The position numbers and the translations under genes are program-made. A stretch of 33,511 nucleotides of DNA from Klenkia sp. PcliD-1-E (GTDB taxonomy: Bacteria; Actinomycetota; Actinomycetes; Mycobacteriales; Geodermatophilaceae), in the NCBI RefSeq assembly GCF_024124375.1, contig NZ_JAMXRZ010000039.1:1-33511 (forward strand), written 5' to 3'. The first letter of the stretch is position 1; the number at the start of each line of letters is the position of its first letter. This document shows positions 2,730 to 28,548 of this stretch, in pieces. The notes beneath the pieces are model-generated. The model was not told where the DNA came from. It was given only the letters and a program-made list of their open reading frames with translations, and searched no databases.

Positions 2730-3136
2730 TCCGCGAAGTCCTGGGTCATCCCCATGCCGGCGAGCAGGGTGGCGCGGTCGTAGTACTCCAGCCACTCGGT
2801 GACGCCCTCGGGCCCGATGGCCAGCACCCCGACCACGGGCACCTCGCCGTGCACGCCGCCGCGGTCGAAGACGTCCCGGCGCTCCACGAAGACCCGCCCC
2901 TCGACCACGCCCATCGCGCGCACCTGCAGCTCGAGGTGGGTGAGGTCCTCGGCGAGCACGGCCAGCCGCTCGGCGATCGCGGCCCGGCCGACCAGCGGGG
3001 TGCTCATCACGCTGTGCAGCACGCCGTCGGGGGCGAACAGGCCGACCACCGCCGCCCAGTCCTGCCGGTCCCAGGCCGCCACCATGTCCCGGACGACGGC
3101 CAGCTTCTCGTCGTCGGTCACGAGGCCGTCGGTCAC
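2726..3136 (-). CDS. Limonene-1,2-epoxide hydrolase-like NTF2-fold protein
   Basis: This is a 136-residue NTF2/SnoaL-fold protein. The segment VFVERRDVF places Arg86 and Asp88 like the catalytic Arg99 and Asp101 of limonene-1,2-epoxide hydrolase, and EWLEYYD places Asp120 like its Asp132, so the Arg-Asp-Asp triad appears intact. Aligning Pro47-Leu48 with the enzyme's Pro57-Leu58 puts Val43 and Ser45 where the enzyme has its water-binding Tyr53 and Asn55. It may therefore be a divergent epoxide hydrolase, or an isomerase or dehydratase of the same fold. The GTG at 3136-3134 is chosen for its AGGTGG Shine-Dalgarno about six bases upstream and its GTGA overlap with the ligase stop. The downstream monooxygenase could make an epoxide for it; that pairing is inference. 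Confidence 0.85.
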   Translation of the reverse strand: MTDGLVTDDEKLAVVRDMVAAWDRQDWAAVVGLFAPDGVLHSVMSTPLVGRAAIAERLAVLAEDLTHLELQVRAMGVVEGRVFVERRDVFDRGGVHGEVPVVGVLAIGPEGVTEWLEYYDRATLLAGMGMTQDFAE

Positions 3137-4869: not shown

Positions 4870-4893
4870 CGGGTCCCTCCGGGGAGGTCGGGG

Positions 4894-4928
4894 CGCCGGG
4901 TGGCCGGGACGCACCCGGCCACCCGGCG
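4894..4928 (-). terminator. Strong hairpin between transporter and catabolic genes
   Basis: Bases 4894-4908 pair perfectly with 4914-4928 (15 bp, loop ACGCA). The hairpin begins five bases after the TGA of the substrate-binding protein gene and ends about 25 bases before the ligase Shine-Dalgarno. No T-tract follows. It may be a rho-independent-like stop of the kind seen in GC-rich actinobacteria, or a stem that stabilises the 3' end of the transporter mRNA and lets part of the transcription continue. Confidence 0.75.
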
Positions 4929-4933
4929 TCGGG

Positions 4934-6229: not shown

Positions 6230-7392
6230 CGTGGCTGGTCCTCATCGGTCGAGGGGGGCGGTCCGGGCTGCTGCCCGTCCGGTTCGGGGGGCCCGCCGGG
6301 GTCGCGGGCGGTGCTGGCAAGCGCGGGGTGGTCGGCGTCGACCACGGTCACCACGCGGCGCAGCGCGATCTGCGCGCGGCCGACGACGCCCTCGGGCATC
6401 AGGAAGACCAGTGCGATGAGCAGGACGCCGAAGGCGATGCCCGACACCGGGCCGGGCGCGACCAGCGAGGTCAGGTAGGGCAGGAAGACCACGGCGACGG
6501 CGCCCACCACCGGGCCGAGCAGGGTGGCCGCGCCGCCCAGCACCAGCCCGGTGACCAGCTCGATGGACTTCAGCAGCGTGAACGACCCGTCGGGGGCCAG
6601 TGCCCCGACGTACATGGCGAACAGCGCGCCGGCCAGGCCGGTGATCGCCGCGGACAGGCCGAAGGTGAGGATCTTGACCCGGGCCACGTGCACGCCCTGC
6701 GCCGCGGCGGCCAGTTCGTGGTCGCGGACGGCCCGCATGGCCAGCCCGGCCCGGCTGCGGGTCAGGTTGCGCACCACCAGCAGGACGACGACCAGCGCGA
6801 TCGCCGAGACCCAGAACAGCCAGACGCCGCGCTGGGCCCGGCTGATCCCGGTCCACTCCGGCGGGGTGAGCAGCCGGGCGCGGATGACCAGCCCCGCGGC
6901 GCCGCCGGTGAGGTCGTCGAAGCGCCGCACGATCTCGGGGAACGCGACGCCGACGGCGAGGGTGACCAGCGCCAGGTACAGGCCGTGGATGCGCAGGGAC
7001 GGCAGCCCGACCAGCAGGCCCGCGACGAAGCAGAACCCGATGGCCACCGGCACGGTGAGCATCGCGTCGAAGCCGTACTGCACCACCAGCACACCGGTCG
7101 TGTAGGCACCGAGGCCGAAGAAGGCGGAGTGCCCGATGGAGAGCAGGCCGGTGTAGCCGGTGACCAGGTTGAGCCCGGCGATGGCGATGGCGAGCACGAA
7201 CACGTTGGTCAGCTGGCCCATCCGGAACAGCGGCCAGGTGGAGGCCCACACCAGCAGGGCGACCACCAGCAGCACGCCGGCCACCTGCAGGCCGCGGTGG
7301 GCCAGCGAGCCGCGGACCAGCACCCGGCCCGGTGCGACCGGGCGCCCGCGCGGGGCCGGGGTGGTGGTGGGACGGTCGGCCACGGCGGTCAC
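6226..7392 (-). CDS. livM: LIV-type ABC transporter permease, LivM family
   Basis: The 388-residue membrane protein belongs to the LivM permease family. After a cytoplasmic Pro/Arg-rich N-terminus of about 35 residues it has some ten hydrophobic spans. Family landmarks are GLNLVTGYTGLLSIGHSAFFGLGAY, PSLRIHGLYLALVTLA, RSRAGLAMRAVRDHELAAAAQG and the final LMPEGVVG. The Pro/Gly-rich tail of about 45 residues is longer than needed for transport. It forms the translocation channel together with LivH. The GTG at 7392-7390 overlaps the livH stop (GTGA). The open frame continues upstream, but that part lacks hydrophobic character and lies inside livH in another frame. Confidence 0.95.
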   Translation of the reverse strand: MTAVADRPTTTPAPRGRPVAPGRVLVRGSLAHRGLQVAGVLLVVALLVWASTWPLFRMGQLTNVFVLAIAIAGLNLVTGYTGLLSIGHSAFFGLGAYTTGVLVVQYGFDAMLTVPVAIGFCFVAGLLVGLPSLRIHGLYLALVTLAVGVAFPEIVRRFDDLTGGAAGLVIRARLLTPPEWTGISRAQRGVWLFWVSAIALVVVLLVVRNLTRSRAGLAMRAVRDHELAAAAQGVHVARVKILTFGLSAAITGLAGALFAMYVGALAPDGSFTLLKSIELVTGLVLGGAATLLGPVVGAVAVVFLPYLTSLVAPGPVSGIAFGVLLIALVFLMPEGVVGRAQIALRRVVTVVDADHPALASTARDPGGPPEPDGQQPGPPPSTDEDQPR

Positions 7393-8285
7393 ACGCGCTC
7401 CAGACGTCGGCTGCCGAACAGCCCGGTGGGCCGGACCAGCAGGATGAGGACGATGACCACGAGGACCGTGGTCTGCTGCATGGCCCCGCCCAGCGCCGGC
7501 ACGTAGCCGGTGACCAGGGCCTCCAGGACGCCGATGACCAGCCCGCCGACGATGGCGCCGCCCAGGCTGTCCAGGCCGCCGAACAGCGCGGCGGCCGAGG
7601 CGGCGATGAAGACGGTGAACATCGTGGTGAGGCTCAGCTGCTGGGGGGCCAGGGGCGTCACCAGCACGCCCGCCAGCCCGCCGATCGCCCCGGACAGCCC
7701 CCAGCCCAGGGCCAGCACCCGGCTGGTGGGCACCCCGGCCAGGGCAGCGGACTCGGGGTTGTCGGCCACGGCCCGCATGTGCAGGCCCACCCGGGTGCGC
7801 CGGAACAGCAGCGAGACCAGGCCCACGAGGACCACGAGCACGACCCACACGCCCAGCGCGTCGCCGTAGAGCCGCGCCCCGCCGAGGGGCACGTAGTCGT
7901 CCAGGCCGTTGGGGAAGGGGCTGGGCATCACCTTGGTCTCGGTGCCGAACAGCAGCGCGTCCAGCGCGTTCAGCCCGGTGAACAACCCCAGCGCCACGAT
8001 GAGGACGGCGGTGTCGTTCTTGCGCTGCACCGGCCGGACCAGCAGCCGCTCGATGCCGGCGCCGAGCACGAAGCCCAGCGCGATCGAGGCCAGCACGGCC
8101 AGCCACACCGGGGAGCCCAGGGTGGTCAGCCACCACGCCACGAAGGTGGTGAACAGGGCCAGCTCGCCCTGCGCGAAGTTGATCGTGCCGCTGCCCCGGA
8201 ACACCACCACCAGGGCCAGGGCCAGCAGCGCGTACACCGAGCCGTTCGTCAGCCCGGAGACCAGTCTCTCCAGCAGGAGGTCCAT
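7389..8285 (-). CDS. livH: LIV-type ABC transporter permease, LivH family
   Basis: The 298-residue permease matches LivH throughout. It begins with LLERLVSGLTNGSVYALLALALVVVF, followed by RGSGTINFAQGELALF, then RRTRVGLHMRAVADNPESAALAGV in the cytoplasmic loop that contacts the ATPases, and ends with ILLVRPTGLFG. About eight membrane segments can be counted. It pairs with LivM to form the import channel. The ATG at 8285-8283 is 13 bases beyond the livF stop, and a GAGGGG run lies about 11 bases upstream as a modest ribosome-binding site. Confidence 0.95.
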   Translation of the reverse strand: MDLLLERLVSGLTNGSVYALLALALVVVFRGSGTINFAQGELALFTTFVAWWLTTLGSPVWLAVLASIALGFVLGAGIERLLVRPVQRKNDTAVLIVALGLFTGLNALDALLFGTETKVMPSPFPNGLDDYVPLGGARLYGDALGVWVVLVVLVGLVSLLFRRTRVGLHMRAVADNPESAALAGVPTSRVLALGWGLSGAIGGLAGVLVTPLAPQQLSLTTMFTVFIAASAAALFGGLDSLGGAIVGGLVIGVLEALVTGYVPALGGAMQQTTVLVVIVLILLVRPTGLFGSRRLERV

Positions 8286-8298
8286 GTCGGCGGTCCCC

Positions 8299-9006
8299 TC
8301 AGAAACCCAGGTAGGCGCGCCGGACGGCGTCGTCGCGGCGGAAGTCCTCGGCGGTGCCGGTCGCGGCGACCTCGCCGACCTCGAGCAGGTGCACCCGGTG
8401 CGCCAGGTCCAGCGCCAGCTCGGCGTTCTGCTCCACGACCAGCAGCGCGGTGCCCTGCTCGGCGTTGATCGCGCCGAGGGTGGCGAACAGGCCCTGCACG
8501 ACGATCGGCGCCAGGCCCAGGCTGGGTTCGTCGCACAGCAGCAGCTGCGGCCGGCTCATCAGCGCGCGGGCGACGGCGAGCATCTGCTGCTCCCCGCCCG
8601 ACAGCAGCCCGGCGGCCTGCCCGGACCGCTCGCGCAGCACCGGGAAGGTGCCGAACCAGCGCTCGACGTCCTCGGCGATGCCCTTGCGGTCCGTGCGGGT
8701 GGCCGCGCCGACGTGCAGGTTGTCCAGCACCGAGAGGGTGGCCAGGGTGCCGCGGCCCTGGGGCACCAGGCTCATCCCGGCCGCGACGACCCGGTCGGGC
8801 CGGGTGCCGACCTCGGCGCCGCCCAGCCGGACCTCGCCGCGGCGGGGCAGCATGCCGGCCAGCGCCTTCATCGTGGTGGTCTTGCCGGCGCCGTTGGCGC
8901 CCAGCACGACGGCGACCTCGCCCTCCTCGACGGTGAGGTCGATGCCGTGCAGCACGTCGGCGGCGCCGTAGCCGGCCCGCAGCCCGCGCACCTCCAGCAG
9001 GCTCAC
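8299..9006 (-). CDS. livF: LIV-type ABC transporter ATP-binding protein, LivF family
   Basis: The 235-residue ATPase carries Walker A GANGAGKT (36-43), the signature LSGGEQ (135-140), Walker B LLLCDEP (155-161) and VEQNAELAL just after it, which is characteristic of LivF. It would power import through LivHM as a heterodimer with LivG. The GTG at 9006-9004 overlaps the livG stop by GTGA. The same open frame runs farther upstream, but that part is the out-of-frame shadow of livG. Confidence 0.95.
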   Translation of the reverse strand: MSLLEVRGLRAGYGAADVLHGIDLTVEEGEVAVVLGANGAGKTTTMKALAGMLPRRGEVRLGGAEVGTRPDRVVAAGMSLVPQGRGTLATLSVLDNLHVGAATRTDRKGIAEDVERWFGTFPVLRERSGQAAGLLSGGEQQMLAVARALMSRPQLLLCDEPSLGLAPIVVQGLFATLGAINAEQGTALLVVEQNAELALDLAHRVHLLEVGEVAATGTAEDFRRDDAVRRAYLGF

Positions 9007-9788
9007 GCCGCCCGCCCCAGGTAGGCCGCGACCACCGCGGGGTCGCGGCGGACCTCGTCGGGGCTGCCGGTGGCGATCCGGCGGCCGAAGTCCATGGCCA
9101 CGACCCGGTCGGAGATGCCCATGACCAGACCCATGTGGTGCTCGACGAGCAGCGCGGCGAAGCCGAACCGGTCGCGCAGCGCGACCAGCAGCCCGCCGAG
9201 CTCGTCGACCTCGGCGTGGGTGAGCCCGCCGGCGGGCTCGTCGAGCAGCAGCAGCGTCGGCTCGGCCATCAGCGCCCGGGCCAGCTCCACCCGTTTGCGG
9301 GTGCCGAAGGGCAGCCCGGCGGCCGGCAGCAGGGCCACGTCGAGCAGCTCGAGCTGCTCCACCAGCTCCCACGCCCGGGCCCGCAGCCGGGTGGTGCGAC
9401 GGGTGGCGCCGGGCCAGGCGAGCAGGCCGGGCACGATGCCGGTGCCCGGCTGCGCGGCGGCGCCGGTGAGCACGTTGTCCAGCACGGTCATCGACCCGAA
9501 CAGGGCCAGGTTCTGGAAGGTCCGGGCGATGCCCAGGCCGGCGATGCGGTGCGCGGGGACGGCGAGCAGGTCGCGGCCGGCGAACCGGATCGACCCCTCG
9601 GCCGGTTCGTAGATCCGGGTGATGCAGTTGAACAGCGTGGTCTTGCCCGCGCCGTTGGGGCCGATGAGCCCGCAGATCTCGCCGGGGCGGACGTCGAAGG
9701 ACAGGTCGCGCAGCGCGGTCACGCCGCCGAACCGCACCGCCACGCCGCGCACCTCCAGCAGCGGGTCGTGCTGCTCGCCTCCGGGCAC
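9003..9788 (-). CDS. livG: LIV-type ABC transporter ATP-binding protein, LivG family
   Basis: The 261-residue ATPase has Walker A GPNGAGKT (43-50), TFQNLALFGSMTVLDNV typical of LivG (90-106), a degenerate signature PFGTRKRVELARAL in place of LSGGQ, as is normal for LivG, Walker B LLLLDEP (179-185) and the switch His217 in VEHHMGLVM. It is the first gene of the minus-strand run that reaches to position 256. The GTG at 9788-9786 is chosen because GAGGAGG lies about seven bases upstream. A longer frame reaching 9875 would run through the predicted promoter and adds residues unlike any LivG start. Confidence 0.95.
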   Translation of the reverse strand: MPGGEQHDPLLEVRGVAVRFGGVTALRDLSFDVRPGEICGLIGPNGAGKTTLFNCITRIYEPAEGSIRFAGRDLLAVPAHRIAGLGIARTFQNLALFGSMTVLDNVLTGAAAQPGTGIVPGLLAWPGATRRTTRLRARAWELVEQLELLDVALLPAAGLPFGTRKRVELARALMAEPTLLLLDEPAGGLTHAEVDELGGLLVALRDRFGFAALLVEHHMGLVMGISDRVVAMDFGRRIATGSPDEVRRDPAVVAAYLGRAA

Positions 9789-9846: not shown

Positions 9847-9875
9847 TTACTACAGCAGACAGAGCGACCGGTCAA
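9847..9875 (-). promoter_or_regulatory. Predicted promoter of the liv / catabolic run
   Basis: On the minus strand TTGACC (9875-9870) and TAGTAA (9852-9847) are separated by exactly 17 bases, a good match to an actinobacterial housekeeping promoter. Transcription would start near 9840, about 50 bases before the livG start codon. The conserved 16-base motif at 9849-9864 covers most of the spacer and part of the -10 element. Confidence 0.55.
9849..9864 (-). promoter_or_regulatory. Shared 16-bp motif, copy 1 (liv side)
   Basis: On the minus strand it reads CTCTGTCTGCTGTAGT and ends 61 bases before the livG start codon. It differs at one position from the copy at 9958-9973 and at three from the copy at 20237-20252. 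All three copies have the same orientation relative to the gene next to them. Confidence 0.6.
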
Positions 9876-9957
9876 CGAAGTCGACGGTTGTCTGCCGCAA
9901 GGACTGCCGTGGACGCCGTCCCAGGTGGTTCTTGACCCCGGCGTGTGCAGTGGACCA

Positions 9958-9973
9958 CTCTGTCAGCTGTAGT
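9958..9973 (+). promoter_or_regulatory. Shared 16-bp motif, copy 2 (SnoaL-like operon side)
   Basis: It reads CTCTGTCAGCTGTAGT on the + strand and ends 30 bases before the GTG of the SnoaL-like gene. With copy 1 it forms an imperfect inverted pair across the 215-base divergent region (9789-10003). No clear -35 element is found 17 bases before its TAGTGC, so it may be an activator or repressor site rather than a core promoter. Confidence 0.6.
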
Positions 9974-10003
9974 GCTCTGCGCTCGTCGACCCCAGGGAGA
10001 ACC

Positions 10004-10573
10004 GTGACCGACCGCCCCGACCCGACCGCAGCGACCCTGGCCCGGCTGGTCGCCAAGCAGGAGGTCGCGGACCTGCTGGCCCGCTACCTACGGGCCATCG
10101 ACCGGGGCGACGTCGAGGGCCTGCGGGCCTGCTACCTGCCGGGCGCCACCGAGGACCACGGCGGGGTGTTCACCGGCGACGCGCAGGCCTACGTCGACTC
10201 CGTCGCCGCCACCCTCGCCCACCCGCGGGCGGTCGGCACGCACGCGCTGACCAACGTGCTGGTCGAGGTCGACGAGGACGCCACCACCGCGGTGGCCGAG
10301 TCCTACGTGCTGGCCTTCGCCCGGGTGCGGACCCCCGACGGGCCGGTCGCGGACTCCCTGACCGCGGCGCGGATGGTCGACCGGGTGCGCTGCACGGACG
10401 GCCGCTGGGGCATCGAGCACCGCACGCTGCGCTTCGACTGGAACCACGACATGCCCCGCACCGAGGGCTGGCTGTACGGCCTGCTGGCCGGGGACCCGTC
10501 GGTGCTGCGCCGCAGCGGCCGCTTCCCCGACGACCCGGTCTACGCCGCCGCCCCCGCGGGGAGCGCCGCGTGA
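10004..10573 (+). CDS. SnoaL-like NTF2-fold protein
   Basis: The 189-residue product has the SnoaL-like / ring-hydroxylating-dioxygenase-beta-like pattern: LVAKQEVADLLARYLRAIDRGD near 14-35, a variable strand region with THALTNVLVEVD, AESYVLAFARV, and WGIEHRTLRFDWNHDMP toward the C-terminus. Members of this fold act as dehydratases, isomerases or small partner subunits, so the reaction cannot be named. The GTG at 10004 has AGGGAG about six bases upstream; a possible TTG start at 9932 would run through the regulatory motif and is rejected. It is the first gene of a four-gene + strand operon, and its TGA overlaps the next start (GTGA). Confidence 0.85.
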   Translation: MTDRPDPTAATLARLVAKQEVADLLARYLRAIDRGDVEGLRACYLPGATEDHGGVFTGDAQAYVDSVAATLAHPRAVGTHALTNVLVEVDEDATTAVAESYVLAFARVRTPDGPVADSLTAARMVDRVRCTDGRWGIEHRTLRFDWNHDMPRTEGWLYGLLAGDPSVLRRSGRFPDDPVYAAAPAGSAA

Positions 10574-11340
10574 GCGGGACGTCGATCCAGGGCGCCACGG
10601 TGCTGGTCACCGGGGCCAACCGCGGCATCGGCCTGGCCTTCGTGCAGGAGGCGCTGGCCGGCGGCGCGGCGCGGGTGCACGCCGGCGTCCGCGCGCCCGC
10701 GGGCACCGTGCCCGAGAGCCCGGTGCCCGGCGACGACCGGGTGGTGCCGGTGCGGCTGGACGTCACCGACCCCGACCAGGTCGCCGCCGCGGCCGGCGCC
10801 TGCGGCGACACCACCGTCGTGGTCAACAACGCCGGCCTGCACACCGGCACCCGGCTGGTCCGCTGCACCGACCCCGCCGACGCCCGCGCCGAGATGGAGG
10901 TCAACTACTTCGGCGTGCTGCACATGACCCGCGCCTTCGCCGACGTCATCGCCGGCAACGGCGGCGGCGCGTTCGTCAACGTGCTGTCGGTCGCCGGCAT
11001 GGTGCCCGCCCCGTTCATGGGCGGCTACTCCCCCGCCAAGGCCGCCGCGCTGTGGCTGTCCACCATCGCCCGCGCCGAGCTCGCCCGCGACGGCATCGGC
11101 GTCACCGCGCTCGTCGTCGGGTCGGTGGACACCCGGATGGCCGCCCACGTCGACGGCCGCAAGGAGGACCCCCGCGACATCGCCCGCGCCGGCTACAAGG
11201 CACTGCGCCGCGGCGACCACGTGGCCGACACCGACTGGATGGCCGTGGACGCCCGCGCCCGGATGGCCCGCGACCCCGCCGGCTACGAGCGGTCGCTGGC
11301 CAAGCTGCTGGACGTCGCCGAGCTGCGGACCAGCCGGTGA
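10570..11340 (+). CDS. Short-chain dehydrogenase/reductase (SDR)
   Basis: The 256-residue classical SDR has TGANRGIG (14-21) for NAD(P) binding, NNAG (86-89), the helix Asn112, Ser140 and the catalytic Tyr153/Lys157 in YSPAK. It should oxidise an alcohol or reduce a ketone on a pathway intermediate. LDVTD at 63-67 is the usual adenine-contact strand. Start GTG at 10570 overlaps the preceding stop and the stop overlaps the next GTG. Which coenzyme is used is not clear; the Arg at 18 in the glycine-rich loop slightly favours NADP. Confidence 0.93.
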   Translation: MSGTSIQGATVLVTGANRGIGLAFVQEALAGGAARVHAGVRAPAGTVPESPVPGDDRVVPVRLDVTDPDQVAAAAGACGDTTVVVNNAGLHTGTRLVRCTDPADARAEMEVNYFGVLHMTRAFADVIAGNGGGAFVNVLSVAGMVPAPFMGGYSPAKAAALWLSTIARAELARDGIGVTALVVGSVDTRMAAHVDGRKEDPRDIARAGYKALRRGDHVADTDWMAVDARARMARDPAGYERSLAKLLDVAELRTSR

Positions 11341-12407
11341 GGCCGGTCCGGGTCGCGCAGTGGGCCACCGGCGCGATCGGCAAGACCTGCCTGCGCGGGG
11401 TCATCGACCGCCCCGACCTCGAGCTGGTCGGGCTCCACGTCTACTCCGACCGCAAGGCCGGCCGGGACGCCGGGGACATCGCGCGCCGCGGGCACACCGG
11501 CGTCACCGCCACCCGCAGCGTCGACGAGCTGCTGGCCACCGGCCCCGACGTCGTGCTGCACACCCCGCGGCTGCAGGTGCCCTACGAGACCCACGACGCC
11601 GACATCTGCCGGCTGCTGCGCGCCGGCGTCGACGTGGTGACCACCGCAGGGCACCACTTCCCCCGTGCGCACGGCCCCGAGCGGGAGGCGATGTTCCTCG
11701 ACGCCTGCCACGCCGGCGGGTCGACGCTCTACGGCGTCGGCATCAGCCCGGGCGTCGTCGGCGAGCGGCTGGCGCTGGCCCTGACCGGTGTCTCGGTCGA
11801 CCTGGACGCCGTCGAGATCGACGAGGTGCTCGACGCCCGCCGGATGCCTGACCCCGACTTCGTCTTCCGGGTCATGGGCATGGGTGGCCCGGTCGAGGCG
11901 CTCGACACCGGCGGCGAGCTACCGGTGCTCTACGGGAAGCTCTACCGCGAGACGCTGCTGTTCATGGCCGAGCGGATGGGCCTGGTGGTCGAGGACGTGG
12001 TCCCCGACCACCGCGTCGTCCCGGCCAGCCGCGACCTGCAGGTCGCCGCCGGGGAGATCGAGGCCGGCACGGTGGGGTCCACCGAGTGGCGCTGGCACGC
12101 CGTCGTCGGCGGCCGCCGCGTGCTCAGCCTGTCGATCATCTGGACGATGGAGCCCGACCTGCCCGACTACGCCGGGCGGGACGAGTGGACCGTGCGGGTG
12201 CACGGCCGCCCCGGGGTGGTCATGACGCTGAACCTGGTCGAGCCCGAGGACCCCACCAGCCGCACCACTGCCGCGCAGTTCGTCACCGCCGGCCCCGTGC
12301 TGCGCGCCGTCGTCCCCGTGCACGAGGCGCCGCCGGGGATCTTCGAGCCCCCCGTCTTCGGCCCCTACCGACCCGCACCCGCACCCGCCCTGCAGGAGAC
12401 GCCATGA
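11337..12407 (+). CDS. Dihydrodipicolinate reductase-like NAD(P)-dependent oxidoreductase
   Basis: The 356-residue product starts with RVAQWATGAIGKTCLRGVIDRPDLELVG-type sequence, a Rossmann fold with a GxxGxxxxR loop, then GRDAGDIARRGHTGV as in the actinobacterial family annotated as dihydrodipicolinate reductase N-terminal domain or 2,4-diaminopentanoate dehydrogenase-like. True lysine-pathway DapB is about 250 residues and lacks this long C-terminal half, so a role in lysine synthesis is unlikely. Related genes commonly stand in actinobacterial catabolic operons, but their substrates are mostly unknown. GTG 11337 overlaps the SDR stop, and the TGA overlaps the ATG of the following ligase (ATGA). 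Confidence 0.85.
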   Translation: MRPVRVAQWATGAIGKTCLRGVIDRPDLELVGLHVYSDRKAGRDAGDIARRGHTGVTATRSVDELLATGPDVVLHTPRLQVPYETHDADICRLLRAGVDVVTTAGHHFPRAHGPEREAMFLDACHAGGSTLYGVGISPGVVGERLALALTGVSVDLDAVEIDEVLDARRMPDPDFVFRVMGMGGPVEALDTGGELPVLYGKLYRETLLFMAERMGLVVEDVVPDHRVVPASRDLQVAAGEIEAGTVGSTEWRWHAVVGGRRVLSLSIIWTMEPDLPDYAGRDEWTVRVHGRPGVVMTLNLVEPEDPTSRTTAAQFVTAGPVLRAVVPVHEAPPGIFEPPVFGPYRPAPAPALQETP

Positions 12408-14041
12408 CCGTGCAGACCCCAGCCGTACCCTGGACCCCGCCGCCGGTGCCGGTCCCGGACGCCTACCGCGACCCCGACTACGCCCTGCTGCCCGACGGGC
12501 GCCGGGCCGAGCGGCTGGCCGACATGCTGCGCGCCCGCGCCGCGGCCACCCCCGACGTGGACGCCGTGCTCGAGGTGGGGCGCACCACCAGCTGGGCGGA
12601 GCTGGACCGCACCGCCAACCGGGTCGCGCAGGCGCTGGCCCGCGACGGCGTGCGGGCCGGGGACCGGGTGGCCTACGTGGGCGCCAACGCGCCGTCCTTC
12701 CTGGCCGTGCTGTTCGGCGCGGCCAAGCTCGGCGCCGTGCCGGCCCCGCTCAACGCACTGCTCGCCGCGCCCGAGCTCTCGGTGGTGCTGGGCGACGCCC
12801 GGCCCGCGGTGCTGGTGGTCGGCGCGGGCAGCGGGGCCGCGGCCGCCGCCGCGACCGGGTCCACCCGCGTGGTCGCGGTCGACGAGGGCGTGCCGGGCGC
12901 GGTGCACTGGGACACCTGGCTGGACGGCGTCGAGGACACCGACCCCGGCGTGGTCGTCGACCCGGGCGACACGGCGGTGCTGTTCTTCAGCTCCGGCACC
13001 ACCGGCCGGCCCAAGGGCATCGAGCTCACCGGCGCCAACCTCGGCCAGGCGCTGGCCGCGTCGTCCTACCTGCTCGACCTCGACGTGCACGGCGTGGCCA
13101 TGGCACCCATCCCGTTCTTCCACGTCGCCGGCATCGGCCTGGCGCTGGCCGCGGTGCTCGGCGGCACCGCGCTGCTGCTGGAGGCCCCCACCGACCTGGC
13201 CGGCGTCGCGGAGCTGTGGCAGCGGCGCAAGGTCACCCACGCCGTCGCCGTCCCCACGGTGCTGCAGATGCTGCTGCAGCTGCCCGCGGTGCGGGAGGCC
13301 GACTGGTCCACGCTGCAGTACGTCATCTACGGCGCCTCGCCGATCCCGGTGCCGGTGCTCACCGACGCCGCCGAGGTCTTCGGCTGCCGGTTCCTGCAGA
13401 GCTACGGGCTCACCGAGTCCACCGGCGGGATCACCATGCTCATGCCCGAGGACCACCGGCCCGACCCGGCCGACCCGGTCGCGGTGGCCCGGCTGCGGTC
13501 GGTGGGCCGGCCGATGCCCGGGGTGCCGGTGCGCGTGGTCGACCCGGTGACCCTGGAGGACCTGCCGCCCGGGCAGCGCGGCGAGGTGCTCATCGGCGGC
13601 GGGCACGTCATGAAGGGCTACTGGGAGCGGCCCGAGGACACCGCCGCGGCGGTGCTGCCCGGCGGCTGGCTGCGCACCGGGGACGGCGGCTCCTTCGACG
13701 AGGGCGGCTACCTGTTCCTGCACGACCGGCTCAAGGACATGATCATCACCGGTGGGGAGAACGTGTTCCCGGCCGAGGTGGAGAGCGTGCTGACCGGGCA
13801 CCCGGGCGTGGTGGAGGTCGCCGTGGTCGGGGTGCCCTCGCAGCGGTGGGGCGAGTCGCCGCACGCCGTCGTCGTGCCCCGCGACCCGGCGACGTTCGAC
13901 CCCGACCAGCTGCTGACCTGGGCGCGGGAGCGGCTGGCGCACTACAAGTGCCCGGTCGGGGTCACCGTGGTCGGGACCCTGCCGCGCAACGCCTCGGGCA
14001 AGCTGCTCAAGCGCCAGCTGCGCGCCGACCTCGCGGGCTGA
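12404..14041 (+). CDS. Acyl-CoA synthetase, AMP-forming (ligase 3)
   Basis: This 545-residue adenylating enzyme has a canonical motif set: SSGTTGRPKG (196-205), QSYGLTE (332-338), TGD (425-427), TGGENVFPAEVE (449-460) and Lys533 in ASGK. It is closely related to ligase 4 at 14841-16406, with which it shares RWGESP and ERLAHYKCP segments. They look like paralogues split between two operons. The ATG at 12404 overlaps the preceding stop and has GGAG six bases upstream. A perfect hairpin follows three bases after the stop codon and closes the operon. Confidence 0.94.
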   Translation: MTVQTPAVPWTPPPVPVPDAYRDPDYALLPDGRRAERLADMLRARAAATPDVDAVLEVGRTTSWAELDRTANRVAQALARDGVRAGDRVAYVGANAPSFLAVLFGAAKLGAVPAPLNALLAAPELSVVLGDARPAVLVVGAGSGAAAAAATGSTRVVAVDEGVPGAVHWDTWLDGVEDTDPGVVVDPGDTAVLFFSSGTTGRPKGIELTGANLGQALAASSYLLDLDVHGVAMAPIPFFHVAGIGLALAAVLGGTALLLEAPTDLAGVAELWQRRKVTHAVAVPTVLQMLLQLPAVREADWSTLQYVIYGASPIPVPVLTDAAEVFGCRFLQSYGLTESTGGITMLMPEDHRPDPADPVAVARLRSVGRPMPGVPVRVVDPVTLEDLPPGQRGEVLIGGGHVMKGYWERPEDTAAAVLPGGWLRTGDGGSFDEGGYLFLHDRLKDMIITGGENVFPAEVESVLTGHPGVVEVAVVGVPSQRWGESPHAVVVPRDPATFDPDQLLTWARERLAHYKCPVGVTVVGTLPRNASGKLLKRQLRADLAG

Positions 14042-14042
14042 T

Positions 14043-14078
14043 CCGCGGCCCGGCCCCCGGCAGGGGGCCGGGCCGCGG
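14043..14078. terminator. Bidirectional hairpin terminator between convergent operons
   Basis: Bases 14043-14058 pair perfectly with 14063-14078 (16 bp, loop GGCA). It lies two bases after the stop of the + strand ligase and four bases beyond the stop of the minus-strand VOC gene at 14083, so it can end transcription from both sides. No T-tract is present, which is common in very GC-rich actinobacteria. Confidence 0.85.
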
Positions 14079-14082
14079 TGCG

Positions 14083-14844
14083 TCAGACCGTGCGGAACCG
14101 CACCGGCATGCCGCCGAAGGTCAGCGGCTCCGCGGGCGCGGTGGCGCCGTCGCGCAGCGACAGCTCCACCCCGCACAGCCCGCTGCCGTCCGCGGTGAAC
14201 CGCACGGTGCGGCCGGGCCGGCCGGGGGCGGCGAGCACCAGCTGCGGGCAGCCGTCCTCGCCGGTGGTCACCGGGACACCCAGGATCGCGCCCAGGACGG
14301 CGGCGCGGGCCCGCGGGTCGGGACCGCCGACGTCGACGCCGAGCACGTCGTCGACCAGCGCGCCCGAGGACCGGGTCATCGGCACGTCGTCCCAGAACCA
14401 CACGTCGGGGTCGGCAATCCCGTCGAGCTCGACGAGCAGGCCCAGGTCGCCCGGGCGCAGCTGCACGATGCGGTGGCCGTAGACCTCCTGGTCGGCCACC
14501 ACCCGCACGCCGGCCTCGGTGGCGGCGGCCACGCCCGCGGCGACGTCGTCCACCTGGATGGACAGCCCGTACCCGCCGCGACCGCCGACCTTGGTCAGCC
14601 ACCGGGTGAGCGGGACGTCCTCGCGCAGCGGACCGACCAGCTCCAGGAAGGCGCCGCCGCCGGCCGGGCCCTCGTGCGCGGCGCCGATCGGCAGCGACTC
14701 GTCGGCCATCCCGACGGTCTCCAGCACCGGGTCCGGGAACCCCGGCGCCAGCCCGAGCGCGGCCCGCGCGGCGGCGGAGTCGCCCTCGAGGTCGCTGGTG
14801 GCGCTGATGACCTGCCGGAGCTGGGCCCACCGGGTGGCGCTCAC
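14083..14844 (-). CDS. VOC (glyoxalase/dioxygenase) superfamily protein
   Basis: The 253-residue protein appears to hold two beta-alpha-beta-beta-beta modules of the vicinal-oxygen-chelate fold. The first runs from about 8, where LRQVISATSDLEG begins, through GGRGGYGLSIQVDDVAAGVAAATEAGVRVV, YGHRIVQLRPGDLGLLVELDG and the weaker second half after about 150. Members include glyoxalases, epimerases, extradiol dioxygenases and isomerases of CoA esters; a specific reaction cannot be named. The GTG at 14844-14842 overlaps the stop of ligase 4 (GTGA). It is the last gene of a five-gene minus-strand operon. Confidence 0.8.
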   Translation of the reverse strand: MSATRWAQLRQVISATSDLEGDSAAARAALGLAPGFPDPVLETVGMADESLPIGAAHEGPAGGGAFLELVGPLREDVPLTRWLTKVGGRGGYGLSIQVDDVAAGVAAATEAGVRVVADQEVYGHRIVQLRPGDLGLLVELDGIADPDVWFWDDVPMTRSSGALVDDVLGVDVGGPDPRARAAVLGAILGVPVTTGEDGCPQLVLAAPGRPGRTVRFTADGSGLCGVELSLRDGATAPAEPLTFGGMPVRFRTV

Positions 14845-16406
14845 GCGATGCCCCGGTCGTGCCCGGCCCACAGCGGTGCGCGCAGCTCGCGGCGCAGCAC
14901 CTTGCCCGAGGGGTTGCGCGGCAGCGCGCCCACCACCTCGACCCGGCGCGGGCACTTGTAGTGCGCCAGCCGCTCGCGGCAGCCGGCCAGCAGGTCGTCG
15001 GGGTCGAGCTGCGCGCCGGGGACGGCGACCACGAAGGCCACCGGGGACTCGCCCCACCGGTCCGAGGGCTCCCCCACCACCGCGACCTCGGCCACGCCGG
15101 GGTGCGCGGCCAGCGCGTTCTCCACCTCGGCGGGGTACACGTTCTCCCCGCCGCTGACGATGACGTCCTTGATGCGGTCGCGCAGGTAGAGGTAGCCGTC
15201 CGCGTCGAGCTCGCCGACGTCACCCGTGCGCAGCCACCCGCCGGGCAGGAACGCCTCGGCGGTGGCGGCCGGGTTGCGCCAGTAGCCGGTGGTCACCACC
15301 GGGCCGCGGACGACGACCTCGCCGACCTCGCCGGCCTGCAGCGGCACCCCGGCGACGTCGACGACGCCGACCTCCACGCCGGGCACCGCGCGGCCGGCCG
15401 AGCGCAGCCGGTGCACCGTCGCCGGGTCGGGCACGTGGTCGGCGGGCGGCAGCAGGGTGGTGACGCCGAGGGTCTCGGTGAGGCCGTAGCTCTGCGACAG
15501 CTGCGCGCCGAAGAGCTCCTGGGCGCGCCGCATGAGCGTCTCCGAGATCGGGGAGGCGCCGTAGACCACGTGCCGCAGCGAGGAGAAGTCGGCGCGGGCG
15601 GCGGCCGGGTCGGCGCAGAGGATGCCGATGATCACCGGCACCATCGCCGCGTGGGTGGCCCGGTGCGCCGTGATCGCCTCGAGCATCGCGGCCGGCGTGG
15701 GCTCCCGGAACTGCACCAGGGTGCCGCCGGCGGCGAGCGTGATCAGCGACCAGCCACCGGCCGCGATGTGGTAGTAGGGCGTGGGCACCAGGCTGACGGA
15801 GTCCGCGTCCACGTCGATCAGGGCACCGAACGCGTCGACCGCGGCGAGCAGCCCGGCGACGGTGATCTGCACACCCTTGGGCCGGCCGGTGGTGCCGGAG
15901 GAGTACATCAGCGCGGCGAGGGCGTCGCCGTCCCGGTCGCGGTGCGGGTCGGTGGCCGGCTGCTCGGCCAGCCATGCCTCGTAGCCGGTCCGGTCGCCGG
16001 CCGGCCCGTCGAACACCAGGGCGGGGACGGCGAGGTCGGCCGGCAGCAGCGGGGCCAGCTCGGCCTCCACCAGGACGGCGGAGACCTCGGCGTCGGCCAG
16101 GATCCAGGCGACCTCGTCGGCGGCCAGCCGGAAGTTCAGCGGGACGACGACCAGCCCGGCCTTCTGCGTGCCGGCGAAGAGCTCCCAGTACTCGGTGGCG
16201 TTGTGGCCCAGGTAGGCCACCCGGTCGCCGGGCTGCAGGCCCAGTGCCACCAACCCGGCGGCCAGCCGGTCCGAGCGCTCGGCGAGCTCGCCGTGGGTGC
16301 AGGCGCGGCCGGCACCGACCACGGCGGGGTGCTGCGGTGAGCGGGCGGCCGGGGCGCGCAGCAGCGCGGCCAGCGTGGTGGCCCGGCTCTCGATCAGCGT
16401 GGTCAC
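14841..16406 (-). CDS. Acyl-CoA synthetase, AMP-forming (ligase 4)
   Basis: The 521-residue enzyme carries SSGTTGRPKG (169-178), SYGLTE (306-311), TGD (394-396), SGGENVYPAEVE (418-429) and Lys502 in PSGK. It shares with ligase 3 the sequences VYGASPI / VIYGASPI, DRWGESP / QRWGESP and ERLAHYKCP, so the two are probably recent relatives with related substrates. GTG at 16406-16404 overlaps the TGA of the upstream regulator gene (GTGA). Placed after the carotenoid oxygenase, it could activate an acid arising from the cleaved aldehyde, although no aldehyde dehydrogenase gene is seen. Confidence 0.94.
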   Translation of the reverse strand: MTTLIESRATTLAALLRAPAARSPQHPAVVGAGRACTHGELAERSDRLAAGLVALGLQPGDRVAYLGHNATEYWELFAGTQKAGLVVVPLNFRLAADEVAWILADAEVSAVLVEAELAPLLPADLAVPALVFDGPAGDRTGYEAWLAEQPATDPHRDRDGDALAALMYSSGTTGRPKGVQITVAGLLAAVDAFGALIDVDADSVSLVPTPYYHIAAGGWSLITLAAGGTLVQFREPTPAAMLEAITAHRATHAAMVPVIIGILCADPAAARADFSSLRHVVYGASPISETLMRRAQELFGAQLSQSYGLTETLGVTTLLPPADHVPDPATVHRLRSAGRAVPGVEVGVVDVAGVPLQAGEVGEVVVRGPVVTTGYWRNPAATAEAFLPGGWLRTGDVGELDADGYLYLRDRIKDVIVSGGENVYPAEVENALAAHPGVAEVAVVGEPSDRWGESPVAFVVAVPGAQLDPDDLLAGCRERLAHYKCPRRVEVVGALPRNPSGKVLRRELRAPLWAGHDRGIA

Positions 16407-17416
16407 GGGGTCTCCTCGTCCAGGGTCGGCGCCGCGGCGCCCACGATCTCGATGTCGGCGCCGCGCAGCCGGGCCCGGCAGACGTCGCAGGCCAGGCACG
16501 GCTCGAAGGTCTGCCCGCAGCCGCGGTGCACCTGCTCCACCGCGGGGCCCTCGGGGGCGCGGAACCAGTCCTGGCCCCAGCGCAGCGTGGTCTCCACGAC
16601 CGGGAAGAAGGCCCGGCCCTTGTCGGTGAGGTGGTACTGCGCCCAGTCGGCGCGCTCGGGGTCGGGCCGGGTGGCCAGCACGCCGAGGTCGGTGAAGGTG
16701 CGCAACCGGTCGGACACCACCGTCGGCGGGGCACCGAGGAAGGTCTGGAACTCCCCGAACCGGGTGGCGCCGCGGAAGGCCGCACCCAGCAGCGCCGAGG
16801 ACCAGCGGTTGCCGATCAGCGCCATCGTCTCGGGGAACATGCCCGGGCCGTCGGTGACCCCGGCGACCGGCGCGGCGGGGGCGGCCCGGCGGCGGGTGGT
16901 GGCCGCCGGCACCGAGCGCTCCCACGACCCGCTGGGCCCCCAGGCGCCGGCGACGTCGCGCGGGTGCACCACGCCGCCGCACGCCTCGCAGGTCAGCAGC
17001 GCCCGGAACGCCGAGCCGCAGGAGCGGTGCACCTTCTGCGGCAACGCCGCGGCGTGCTCGGGCACCCAGCGGCGCTCCCACTCCCAGATCGAGAGCATGA
17101 CCGGCCACAGCCCGCGACCGCGGGCGGTGAGCAGGTACTCGTGCCGCTCGGGCCGCTCGGAGTACCGGTGGCGCCGGTACACCCCGACCTCGGTGAGCCG
17201 GGTCAGCCGGTTGGTCAGCACCGAGTTGGAGATCGGCAGCCGCGCCTTCCACTCCCCGAACCGGCGGGCACCCAGCAGCGACTGCTGCACCAGCAGCAGG
17301 TTCCACTCGTCGCCGACCAGCGGCAGGGTCGCCCCGATCTGGTTGACCCCGCCGGCCGGCAGCGGGGTCGGGGACTCCCCGGCGTCGGCGTCGGCCGCAC
17401 CCAGCGGGAGGCTCAC
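16403..17416 (-). CDS. Tandem HxlR-type regulator with two Cys/His clusters
   Basis: The 337-residue protein contains two HxlR winged-helix domains in one chain. Domain one spans about 26-120 (ATLPLVGDEWNLLLVQQSLLGARRFGEW, SVLTNRLTRLTEVGVY). Domain two spans about 195-285 (TMALIGNRWSSALLGAAFRGATRFGEF, TVVSDRLRTFTDLGVL, YHLTDKGRAF). Each is followed by His-x2-Cys-x9-Cys-x2-Cys (His130, Cys133, Cys143, Cys146; and His297, Cys300, Cys310, Cys313), plausible metal-binding knuckles. HxlR proteins normally have a single domain near 110 residues and bind DNA as dimers; this one could act as a built-in dimer. GTG at 17416-17414 overlaps the carotenoid oxygenase stop. As the only regulator in the cluster it is the obvious candidate for the operators at 9849, 9958 and 20221-20252. 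Confidence 0.88.
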   Translation of the reverse strand: MSLPLGAADADAGESPTPLPAGGVNQIGATLPLVGDEWNLLLVQQSLLGARRFGEWKARLPISNSVLTNRLTRLTEVGVYRRHRYSERPERHEYLLTARGRGLWPVMLSIWEWERRWVPEHAAALPQKVHRSCGSAFRALLTCEACGGVVHPRDVAGAWGPSGSWERSVPAATTRRRAAPAAPVAGVTDGPGMFPETMALIGNRWSSALLGAAFRGATRFGEFQTFLGAPPTVVSDRLRTFTDLGVLATRPDPERADWAQYHLTDKGRAFFPVVETTLRWGQDWFRAPEGPAVEQVHRGCGQTFEPCLACDVCRARLRGADIEIVGAAAPTLDEETP

Positions 17417-18930
17417 AGGCCCACCGCGGTGGCCGGGTCGTCGCTGGTGGCCCAGCCCGGCAGGGAGTCCCCGGCCGCCCAGGTGGAGTGCGTACCGCTG
17501 GAGATCCGCTCGGGCAGCTGCAGGGTGCACACCGGCCCGTCGGACAACCGCGACGCGTCGAACACCAGGCAGTAGGACGCATCGGTGTTCATGTCGGTGG
17601 TGAGGGTGACCAGGTAGCCGTCGTCCTCGGCGGTCGAGCCCACCCGCGGGGCCATCGCGGTCTCGCTGCCGTAGACGCCCTCGCCGAAGGAGATCCGCTC
17701 CTCCGTGCCGGTCCTCAGGTCGTGCCGGACCAGGCCGTCGAAGAGGAACCAGGCGGGCTTGCCGGTGGCGGCGTAGGCGTAGCGGTAGTCCCGGCCGGCG
17801 TAGGCGCCGTTCATCATCCCGAACTCGGTGACGGTGTCCGAGAGCTGCTCCTCGCGCACCAGGCCGGTGCGCAGGTTCAGCCGCCACCGGTGCAGCCGGG
17901 ACTGCATGCGGTCCAGCGCGAGGAACCGGAAGGCCCGCTCCCACTTGTTGCCCATGCCGTTGTCGGCCGGCTCGGGGTCGCCCTGGAAGAAGCCGTCCAG
18001 GACGATCTCTTCGCCCTCCTCGTAGGCGTTCACCCAGTGCAGCACGTAGGTCGACTCGGCCTCGAACCACCGGATGGACCCCGGGCCGCCGCGGCGCGGG
18101 ATGACCGCGATCCGGGTGGGCAGCTCGGGGTGGAACCGGGCGGCGTAGTGGCCCTGCCCGATCAGCTCGGGGTCCCAGAACAGCGGGCAGTCGTTGAGGA
18201 TCGCGTAGTTCTCGGTGTAGGCCATGTCGTGCGGCAGGCGGGGGCCGGGCAGCTCGACGTCGACGTAGTGCACCAGCTCGTCGTCCGCGTCGACCACGCC
18301 GTAGTGCATGTAGGGCGCCTGCGTGCCGTAGTTGAAGAACAGCAGCTCCCCGGTGCGGTCGTCGGCCTTGGGGTGCGCCGAGACGCCCCAGTCGAACGGG
18401 AAGTCCCCGCCCCAGGTGGCCTTGCCCAGCGTCTCGGCGGTGCGCGGGTCGAGCCGGTACAGGTCACCGCACTGGTAGAAGGTCGTGAGCGCCGTGCCGT
18501 TGTGCACCACGACGTCGGTGCTGGAGGCGTCCTTCATCCGGCCGCGGGCGCCCCAGCCGTCGTCGCGCTTCGCGATCGCCGGCCGCTCGGCGAGCCCGGC
18601 CCACAGCGGGCCGCCCGCCTCGGCCTCGGCGAGCAGGCCGTCGGTGCGCACGAACCGGTTGCGGTAGAAGGCCTTCCCGTCGCGGAAGCCGACGACGTGC
18701 ACCATGCCGTCGCCGTCGAAGGGGTGGTAGTTGCGCAGCGCGGGGTGCACCGGGTTCTCGGTGTTCCGCAGGTACACCCCGTCCAGGTCGGTGGGCACCT
18801 CGCCCTGCACGACGGTGAGGTCGTCGGCCTTGAACTCGGTGGTCTGCGGCCGCCACGGGCCGGTGCGGTAGGGGTGGTCGTCGTCCGCCGGGAGGGTGGA
18901 CAGGACACGACCGACGATCTCGACGTCCAC
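17413..18930 (-). CDS. Carotenoid cleavage oxygenase family protein
   Basis: The 505-residue product belongs to the RPE65 / lignostilbene dioxygenase / carotenoid oxygenase family of iron(II) enzymes that split a C=C bond to two carbonyls. The four iron-binding histidines are present: His186 in SAHPKAD, His234 in LPHDMAYTE, His298 in LHWVNAYE and His481 in GTHSTW. Glu369 in TVTEFG and Glu423 in GSETAMAPR fit the second-shell acids. VYLRNTENP and YHPFDGDGMVH are the usual N-terminal signatures. No signal peptide is visible, so it should be cytoplasmic. The substrate may be a carotenoid, apocarotenoid or stilbene. GTG at 18930-18928 has GAGAGG upstream; the gene begins 28 bases after the thiolase stop. 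Confidence 0.94.
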   Translation of the reverse strand: MDVEIVGRVLSTLPADDDHPYRTGPWRPQTTEFKADDLTVVQGEVPTDLDGVYLRNTENPVHPALRNYHPFDGDGMVHVVGFRDGKAFYRNRFVRTDGLLAEAEAGGPLWAGLAERPAIAKRDDGWGARGRMKDASSTDVVVHNGTALTTFYQCGDLYRLDPRTAETLGKATWGGDFPFDWGVSAHPKADDRTGELLFFNYGTQAPYMHYGVVDADDELVHYVDVELPGPRLPHDMAYTENYAILNDCPLFWDPELIGQGHYAARFHPELPTRIAVIPRRGGPGSIRWFEAESTYVLHWVNAYEEGEEIVLDGFFQGDPEPADNGMGNKWERAFRFLALDRMQSRLHRWRLNLRTGLVREEQLSDTVTEFGMMNGAYAGRDYRYAYAATGKPAWFLFDGLVRHDLRTGTEERISFGEGVYGSETAMAPRVGSTAEDDGYLVTLTTDMNTDASYCLVFDASRLSDGPVCTLQLPERISSGTHSTWAAGDSLPGWATSDDPATAVGL

Positions 18931-18958
18931 GGGTGGTCCTCTCTCGCAGGTCTGGGCG

Positions 18959-20194
18959 TCAGGCGGCGGGGGCCGACCCGACCACGAAGCTCACCGTGGT
19001 CGTGGTGCTGCCGCCGATGTTGAGGGTCATGAAGGTGTCGGCACCCTCGACCTGGTACTCACCGGCGGCGCCGGTGACCTGCTTGGCGGCGTCGACGAGC
19101 ATGCGGACGCCGGTCGCACCGACCGGGTGGCCACCGCCGATGAGCCCGCCGCTGGGGTTGACGGGCAGCCGGCCGCCGGCCTCGATGCTGCCGTCCTCGA
19201 CCGCCTGCCAGTTCTTGCCCGGCTCGGTGAGCCCGACGTGGTCGATGGCCAGGTACTCCGAGGGTGTGAAGCAGTCGTGGGTCTCCAGGCCGTCGACGCC
19301 GTCGAGGGTCACCCCGGCGCGCCCGAAGGCGTCCTGCACGGCCTGCCGCACGTGCGGCAGCAGGTAGGGGTCCTCCGCGGAGCGGTCCAGCTTCTGCTGC
19401 AGGCCCAGGCCCACCGTGCGGTGGCCCCAGCCGAGCATGCGGGCCAGCGGACGGCGGGTGGCCTGCGGGTGCGCGGCCAGCCAGCGGTCGGACACCAGCA
19501 CCACACCGGCCGCGCCGTCGGTGACCTGGCTGCAGTCGTAGCGTCGCATCCGGCCCTCGACGACCGGGTTGTCGGCGCGGTCGGTGGCGGTGCCGACCAG
19601 CTGTCCGACGTCCCACCCGCGGGTCTGCGCGTTGGGGTTGCGCTTGGCGTTGGCGAAGTTGAGCTGCGCGATCGCCTGCAGGTGGACGTCGTCGAGGCCG
19701 TAGCGCTCGTCGTAGGCCTGCGCCACCTTGTCGAACATCCACGGCCACATGAACCGCGCGTCCTGGCCCTCGTGGCCGATCCACGCCGCGGCGCCGAGGT
19801 GGCCGGCGGCCTGGTCGCCGGGGACGGTCTTCTCCAGCTCCACGCCGAGCACCAGGGCGCAGTCGTAGTGCCCGGCCTGCAGGTCGGCCATCGCGGCGAG
19901 GACGGCGATGCTGCCCGAGGCGCAGGCGGCCTCGTGCCGGGCGGCGGGCACGCCCCACAGCGCGGGCTCCACGGTGGCCGGCATGGCCCCCATCTGGCCC
20001 TGGCCGGTGAACAGCTGGCCGAAGGCGTTGCCGACGTGCACCACCTCGACCTGGTCGGGGCCCAGGCCCGCGGACTCCAGCGTGCCGCGCACCACCTCGG
20101 CGGTGAGGTCGGCGCTGTCACCACCCTCGCGGGTCAGGTTGCGGGCGAAGTCGGTCTGGTACCCGCCCGCCACCCAGATGCCGGTGCCGTCCAC
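18959..20194 (-). CDS. Thiolase, SCP2 / archaeal-type acetyl-CoA acetyltransferase family
   Basis: The 411-residue protein is an SCP2-like thiolase. Cys91 in AACASGS is the expected nucleophile, ETHDCF (304-309) replaces the NEAF motif of classical thiolases, and His356 lies in GGHPVGATG. The C-terminal region reads LNIGGS rather than the classical CxG. These features are normal for this subfamily, many of which work on branched or sterol-type side chains, or act with an OB-fold (DUF35) partner that is not seen in this window. The GTG at 20194-20192 has GAGGAGG five bases upstream. It is the first gene of the carotenoid oxygenase operon and diverges from a second thiolase gene 90 bases away. 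Confidence 0.92.
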   Translation of the reverse strand: MDGTGIWVAGGYQTDFARNLTREGGDSADLTAEVVRGTLESAGLGPDQVEVVHVGNAFGQLFTGQGQMGAMPATVEPALWGVPAARHEAACASGSIAVLAAMADLQAGHYDCALVLGVELEKTVPGDQAAGHLGAAAWIGHEGQDARFMWPWMFDKVAQAYDERYGLDDVHLQAIAQLNFANAKRNPNAQTRGWDVGQLVGTATDRADNPVVEGRMRRYDCSQVTDGAAGVVLVSDRWLAAHPQATRRPLARMLGWGHRTVGLGLQQKLDRSAEDPYLLPHVRQAVQDAFGRAGVTLDGVDGLETHDCFTPSEYLAIDHVGLTEPGKNWQAVEDGSIEAGGRLPVNPSGGLIGGGHPVGATGVRMLVDAAKQVTGAAGEYQVEGADTFMTLNIGGSTTTTVSFVVGSAPAA

Positions 20195-20220
20195 GGCGCC
20201 TCCTCGGTCGGTGCTTGCCT

Positions 20221-20238
20221 GTATGACTCAGGTCATAC
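20221..20238. promoter_or_regulatory. Perfect 18-bp palindromic operator
   Basis: GTATGAC (20221-20227) and GTCATAC (20232-20238) are perfect inverted arms around TCAG. It is a typical dimeric repressor site. It lies 26 bases before the minus-strand thiolase start and overlaps the end of shared motif copy 3 at 20237-20252. A possible + strand -35, TTGCCT (20215-20220), abuts it, so a bound repressor could block both divergent promoters. Confidence 0.75.
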
Positions 20239-20252
20239 TACAACTAACAGAG
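20237..20252 (-). promoter_or_regulatory. Shared 16-bp motif, copy 3 (thiolase / carotenoid oxygenase side)
   Basis: On the minus strand it reads CTCTGTTAGTTGTAGT and ends 42 bases before the thiolase start. It is followed by AT, so a -10-like TAGTAT (20240-20235) overlaps its end and the palindrome. It matches copy 2 at 14 of 16 positions and copy 1 at 13 of 16. Confidence 0.6.
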
Positions 20253-28540: not shown

Positions 28541-28548
28541 GAGCCCTC

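Follow-up and report, generated by a model that had tools for sequence, protein, structure and literature searches.

Why should one 16-bp motif stand in front of three operons in a single stretch of actinobacterial DNA, and which protein reads it? The question is raised by contig NZ_JAMXRZ010000039.1 of Klenkia sp. PcliD-1-E (contig C195 of the 4.51 Mb assembly), whose 33,511 nucleotides, analysed as a whole, are referred to here as the window. A first-pass annotation of this window had proposed that the motif, CTCTGTYWGYTGTAGT, marks a regulon covering a transporter, two ligase-containing operons and a carotenoid oxygenase operon. Comparison with other genomes shows that the site is conserved, has a fixed direction, occupies a promoter-like position and co-occurs with a regulator encoded in the third of the operons, a protein made of two fused HxlR domains (tandem HxlR). 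In our judgement this HxlR-HxlR fusion, with its diverged heads, probably binds the motif as an operator with a single direction and keeps the operons repressed until a pathway intermediate becomes available. The regulon is new, and the regulator is a new variant of the known HxlR type.

A pattern search of the window finds three exact copies of the motif, at 9849..9864 on the minus strand (copy 1), 9958..9973 on the plus strand (copy 2) and 20237..20252 on the minus strand (copy 3), precisely where they had first been placed, and these are the only exact copies in the 4.51 Mb genome. Read from the sequence, their pairwise identities are 15, 14 and 13 of 16, again as reported, and the sequences flanking them are unlike. 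With up to three mismatches permitted the window still contains exactly three places, compared with a mean of 0.31 in shuffled sequences, none of the 100 shuffles reaching three. The common orientation towards the nearest gene is borne out, copy 1 pointing at the start codon GTG 9788 across 60 bases, copy 2 at GTG 10004 across 30 and copy 3 at GTG 20194 across 42; the distances originally given were 61, 30 and 42, so that the first alone needs correction. Likewise, the statement that the motif lies in both divergent control regions holds for the three copies found there, but the divergent plus-strand operon that begins at 20285 has no copy facing it.

In the whole assembly, up to three mismatches give 29 places, namely the three exact window copies, none with one mismatch, one with two and 25 with three, whereas the reversed pattern used as a control gives 117; the weak matches are therefore background. 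All 26 of them score at most 11.5 by the matrix described below, less than any of the three copies. As regards the fear that the motif might be found at random coding positions as often as upstream of genes, the answer comes from counts, exact copies being limited to the three in the window and weak matches being fewer than in the control; a crude open reading frame test of the 26 background matches says nothing, since it also called copies 1 and 2 coding.

At the level of the family, five of 112 genomes contain a match with at most one mismatch, and the trio of sites is confined to G000 and the same-genus G001. Single-mismatch matches in G005, G041 and G069 have no window-gene homologue near them, save for a 36% acyl-CoA dehydrogenase match about 6 kb away in G005. 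The tandem HxlR is present at full length in two of 107 family genomes, again G000 and G001, the next best match (E 1.1e-27) extending over about one half; G001 and a record of Klenkia brasiliensis DSM 44526 both match it at 96%. In the class, the oxygenase is found at E <= 1e-100 in 29 of 394 genomes, our own included; in 27 of the others its identity is 68-79%. In the 29 class loci besides our own, a search around the upstream end of the operon finds the motif with at most one mismatch in 15, with two in L093 and with three in L070, L072 and L076; the remaining ten have no match at up to three mismatches there. The 15 closest sites, one per genome and none from Klenkia, were used to train a position weight matrix (PWM), the more diverged sites being left out; 14 of them precede the thiolase gene and that of G260, where no thiolase was found, precedes the oxygenase gene. 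Although trained outside the genus, this matrix gives the window copies 25.9 (copy 1), 14.1 (copy 2) and 28.0 bits (copy 3), and nothing else in the window exceeds 5 bits.

A further set of loci was selected by the regulator, the tandem HxlR alignment alone serving as query and the best 80 of at least 518 confirmed places, ranked by similarity, being taken. At a threshold of 14 bits these contain 100 sites in 71 of the 80 loci versus 4 sites on reversed sequence, and at 9 bits 112 sites in 74 loci versus 30 sites in 27. Removal of L206, L217 and L271, which share a training site, leaves 77 loci, of which 68 contain 96 sites at the 14-bit threshold. By hand count of record titles, the 71 loci span 23 named genera. 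Every one of the 100 sites has a window-gene homologue on its strand, with a start no more than 400 bases downstream (107 of 112 at 9 bits), the gene being the thiolase in 70, the oxygenase in 10, the ABC ATPase in 7, FadD_b in 6, SnoaL in 4, the luciferase-like monooxygenase (LLM) in 2 and FadD_d in 1. Site direction is fully informative in only 33 of the 100, all of which face the single adjacent gene, because the other 67 lie in divergent regions with a gene within 400 bases on both sides.

Conservation upstream of orthologous operons, the test set in advance for the motif, is thus seen for the thiolase-oxygenase operon in many genera, and also for the transporter and SnoaL-SDR operons. One of the seven ABC ATPase-facing sites belongs to the same-genus record L193; transporter-operon sites in other families are those of Janibacter (L155/L217), Humibacillus (L207/L219), Aeromicrobium (L220), Mumia (L230) and Virgisporangium (L227). 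The four SnoaL-facing sites comprise that of L193 and one ahead of the SnoaL-SDR operon in each of three Planotetraspora loci. Even the outward-pointing arrangement of copies 1 and 2 recurs. In Planotetraspora L196, L198 and L203 the two sites face SnoaL and FadD_b; in L227 of Virgisporangium they face the ABC ATPase and a ligase beside SnoaL.

The link between site and regulator was assessed among the 27 class genomes with the orthologous oxygenase, the tandem HxlR being counted as present at E < 1e-80 and the site at 9 bits or more in the fetched region of 15-20 kb. The regulator is present in 20 of these genomes, and the site in 19 of the 20 as against none of the 7 without it (Fisher p = 9e-6, a value inflated by the relatedness of the genomes, all seven negatives coming from genus g13). 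Within g13 itself the site is present in all 11 genomes with the tandem HxlR and in none of the 7 without. G215, G390 and G469 were scored at the region of the closest tandem HxlR rather than at the oxygenase region, whose best match carries three mismatches; in these three genomes the site immediately precedes the HxlR gene. By comparison, none of 28 shorter family loci (about 3.4 kb) around HxlR matches covering roughly half the query has a site. Sites kept before orthologous operons and accompanied by the tandem HxlR support the regulon interpretation of the first-pass annotation, which had also named this protein as the candidate binder; comparative evidence of this kind makes the tandem HxlR the most likely reader of the motif.

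The tandem HxlR gene occupies 16403..17416 on the minus strand. Its product matches Pfam HxlR (PF01638) at E 2.3e-33 over two stretches, as do all 24 members of alignment A1, so that two domains are contained in one chain, not the single one expected for the family; the two halves are 31% identical over 124 amino acids. A structure model, used for its statistics and secondary structure, has a mean predicted local distance difference test score of 84.8 and a predicted template-modelling score of 0.84. From the model and alignment A1 the presumed recognition helices comprise residues 64-76 of domain 1 (17189..17227, minus strand) and 231-243 of domain 2 (16688..16726, minus strand). These are unlike in sequence, with SNSVLTNRL in the region of domain 1 but PTVVSDRL in that of domain 2, a contrast that on visual inspection extends to the 24 sequences of A1. 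Each half also has a conserved cluster of His and Cys residues (H130, C133, C143 and C146; H297, C310 and C313), perhaps zinc sites.

Over 99 distinct sites the consensus is approximately GTnACTCTGYTWGTTGTAGTA, with T enriched at -11 and G at -9, and the full element is accordingly longer than 16 bp and takes in a -10 hexamer. Within a promoter-like sequence, the motif takes up the 17-bp spacer together with the -10 hexamer (TAGTA), and the enriched T and G fit a -35 hexamer 17 bp before TAGTA. In the 79 non-redundant sites of the 99, the mean match to TTGACA at this spacing is 2.20 of 6 positions, compared with 1.37 (sd 0.11) in shuffles, none of 1000 of which reach it; spacings of 10 and 12 score above 17, but a hexamer there overlaps the conserved motif itself. 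Copy 1 shows the arrangement with TTGACC (9870..9875, minus strand) 17 bp before TAGTAA (9847..9852, minus strand), and copy 3 with TAGTAT (20235..20240, minus strand) preceded by a weak TGGTCC in the -35 slot. With a -35 signal at 17-bp spacing and TAGTA at -10, the site would overlap the core promoter as MarR/HxlR operators do. In several relatives, read by eye, a possible start codon follows TAGT by 8-13 bases, a gap that would suit leaderless transcripts.

The symmetry of the site is partial. With centre 7 as the axis, complementarity is confined to pairs 6-8 (0.99, 1.00 and 0.79), pairs 1-5 yielding 0.26, 0.15, 0.03, 0.06 and 0.00, so that the outer ACT-N11-AGT is symmetric and the 11-bp core is not. 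A full palindrome or inverted-repeat operator was accordingly rejected, the core pairs being at 0.26 or lower with no better centre available (the next best, centre 4, gives 0.62, 0.82 and 0.77). A 7-bp direct repeat, YTGTnnG-YTGTAGT, noted on visual inspection of the three copies, was likewise abandoned, because conservation in the wider alignment falls instead on the outer ACT/AGT and the -10. A fully symmetric counterpart, ACTAC-N7-GTAGT, occurs five times in 2.29 Mb of loci (L157:17617, L158:6025, L160:18042, L161:6426 and L165:11778), always in control regions of clusters of G215, G390 and G469, genomes which hold tandem-HxlR paralogues, and never inside a window-gene homologue; two or three of the five are independent, since two pairs represent the same site in G215 and G390. 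The same half-sites at spacings of 2-6 and 8-15 are found 0 to 2 times each. From this distribution GTAGT, the right half, would seem to be the older of the two half-sites, the left one having changed. Beside a weaker HxlR paralogue in L189, no ACT-N11-AGT was found in 240 bases.

Taken together with the protein, these features lead to a proposed mechanism. The motif would be the operator half of a promoter-operator unit, extending from the spacer through the -10 (TAGTA), and the tandem HxlR from the third operon would bind it as a built-in pseudo-dimer, both heads touching the symmetric outer ACT...AGT; the asymmetric core and fixed direction of the site would arise from the difference between the two recognition helices. 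Bound protein would cover the promoter and so repress all three operons (transporter, ligase and oxygenase), the one that encodes it among them, until released by a pathway intermediate, perhaps a CoA thioester or an aldehyde derived from the oxygenase. We give an even chance to a more specific version, in which the two heads are specialised on the half-sites ACTCTG and TGTAGT and read a non-palindromic operator of fixed polarity in the promoter spacer, a regulator of the MarR superfamily having been made directional, with the symmetric and perhaps ancestral ACTAC-N7-GTAGT kept in the paralogue-holding relatives. Such a pair would provide a regulator, an operator and a regulon for an uncharacterised oxygenase/thiolase/acyl-CoA pathway of many soil actinobacteria and mycobacteria; it would also be a natural example of how a symmetric operator can become directional through duplication and fusion of its regulator.

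Several points weigh against this picture. The 80 loci are only the top-ranked relatives by similarity to the window's tandem HxlR, and nine of them (L197, L238, L240, L241, L253, L254, L262, L269 and L272) have no 14-bit site, although in L240, L254 and L272 the contig ends within the first gene. In G360 the tandem HxlR is accompanied, at the position where the site is expected, by no more than a degenerate form, and the seven genomes lacking both partners are, as members of one genus, not independent. At copy 2 the -35 and -10 are both weak (GCAGTG and TAGTGC), and a sigma-70 scan requiring the final T found no promoter in either control region. The choice of repression over activation is a guess made at the level of the family, and binding and control by the tandem HxlR are proposed on comparative grounds. 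These leave room for a different transcription factor, encoded elsewhere, that reads the element while the tandem HxlR is a mere neighbour in the cluster; many cluster genes might be inherited together with the site, and more than one tandem HxlR match is present in five of the 27 relatives (G366, G215, G390, G469 and G386). We regard this as improbable in view of how closely the site tracks the tandem HxlR among orthologous thiolase-oxygenase operons, and of its position directly before the HxlR gene where that gene is apart from the oxygenase.

The sign of control is the point at which repression by the tandem HxlR meets its main competitor, namely that the same protein at the same sites activates, as do HxlR and HypR of Bacillus. 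Activators usually sit upstream of the -35, whereas the site here overlaps the -10 and a spacer of the normal 17 bp, the usual place for a repressor, and we therefore consider activation unlikely, if less so than a different binder. In its favour, PDB entries of HxlR call it a transcriptional activator, HypR is reported to be activated on thiol modification (PMC6943732), and some MarR-family members are stated to activate (PMC4737184). The fixed direction, the conserved -10-like end and the -35 signal could also be taken to mean that the motif is a core promoter type for an alternative sigma factor and not an operator at all. The strongest conservation falls in the spacer, which sigma factors contact little, the -35 is weak and presence of the motif tracks the tandem HxlR; this explanation is very doubtful. 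Finally, only three copies exist, all within 10.4 kb, as might be expected of chance repeats or a recent local duplication in the contig, yet many genera keep the motif at matching places, the flanks of the three copies differ, and the idea is contradicted by the recovery of all three by the out-of-genus matrix and by the 100 sites against 4 on reversed sequence; we discount it almost entirely.

Among known systems the HxlR/DUF24 proteins (HxlR, YodB, HypR (YybR) and QsrR) provide the evident comparison, their solved chains being matched by the window regulator at the profile level. The closest solved structures by profile and fold are PA1607 (PDB 2f2e) and PA1374 (PDB 4gcv), with HypR, YodB and other MarR-fold chains coming next; the former two, of 146 and 168 residues, are about half the length of the window regulator and each aligns over about one half of it. 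The known HxlR/DUF24 members are single-domain proteins, unlike the window regulator with its two diverged fused HxlR units, each followed by a His/Cys cluster, and its asymmetric site. HxlR itself acts as a single-domain homodimer on inverted repeats, and the YodB site reportedly has an outer symmetry of the TACT...AGTA type. A second comparison is with CouR, which we take not to be an HxlR fusion. MarR-family proteins generally are homodimers on inverted repeats, and CouR of Rhodococcus jostii RHA1 is a MarR-family repressor of an actinobacterial aromatic-acid pathway, whose boxes overlap promoters with -10 TtagtT and -35 TTGAcA and whose DNA binding is abolished by p-coumaroyl-CoA (PMC4737184). 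In the same account CouR binds as a homodimer to an inverted-repeat box at the -35 (PMC4737184), in contrast to the asymmetric site in spacer and -10 and the fused pair proposed here; CouR may nonetheless serve as a working analogue for the proposed repression and CoA-thioester release. Literature searches found no tandem HxlR of this kind and, judged by title, no relevant paper for the motif letters, most subscription papers lying outside the coverage of both; a search on HxlR with thiolase, dioxygenase and Rhodococcus gave no paper, and those found for HxlR with carotenoid were unrelated, as judged by title and start of abstract.

The presumed target operons were delimited by gene calls and Pfam matches and, for the first, by spacing. 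Copy 1 faces operon 1 (256..9788, minus strand), which starts with the ABC ATPase gene at GTG 9788 and encodes a branched-chain-type ABC transporter (ABC2, ABC1, two permeases and a binding protein) followed by acyl-CoA ligases, a SnoaL protein and a luciferase-like monooxygenase (FadD_b, SnoaL, LLM and FadD_a). Operon 2 (10004..14041, plus strand), faced by copy 2, contains genes for a SnoaL-like protein, an SDR, a diaminopentanoate-dehydrogenase-like protein (DAPDH-like) and the ligase FadD_c. Copy 3 faces operon 3 (14083..20194, minus strand), with an SCP2-type thiolase, an RPE65/carotenoid-oxygenase-family (CCD) enzyme, the tandem HxlR, the ligase FadD_d and a glyoxalase-like protein, while the divergent plus-strand operon from 20285 encodes a thiolase, an SDR, a DUF1295 protein and thioesterases. 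The oxygenase scores 224.1 bits against a lignostilbene-dioxygenase model and 223.5 against an apocarotenoid-cleaving one, both far below the respective cut-offs of 800 and 675; among solved structures, its best relatives bear the name carotenoid 9,10-dioxygenase. The substrate of the pathway was not found in the literature search.

Some smaller features of the sites may be recorded. Directly 3' of copy 3, and overlapping its -10, is an inverted repeat, GTATGAC-TCAG-GTCATAC (20221-20238), which another regulator may use as its operator; it was not seen in the other relatives whose control regions were displayed, and in a comparison limited to the four bases 3' of copy 3 these are identical in the same-genus locus L186. 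Two sites of the same direction lie 54-100 bp apart in the thiolase/thiolase divergent region of L194, L205, L208, L212, L213, L218 and L227, the upstream one scoring lower in five of the seven. In L235, L244 and L247 two sites of one direction precede the thiolase or oxygenase gene at a spacing of exactly 23 bp, roughly two turns of the helix, for which cooperative binding is possible. The single-mismatch match in the same-family genome G069 (L035:782-797) scores 20.6 bits and is unexplained; the 2.3 kb covered there contain no window-gene homologue, and the crude test puts the match inside a long open reading frame. Elsewhere in the window, an alpha-amylase-family gene (27296-28564) sits within a series of acyl-CoA ligase, acyl-CoA dehydrogenase and P450 genes.

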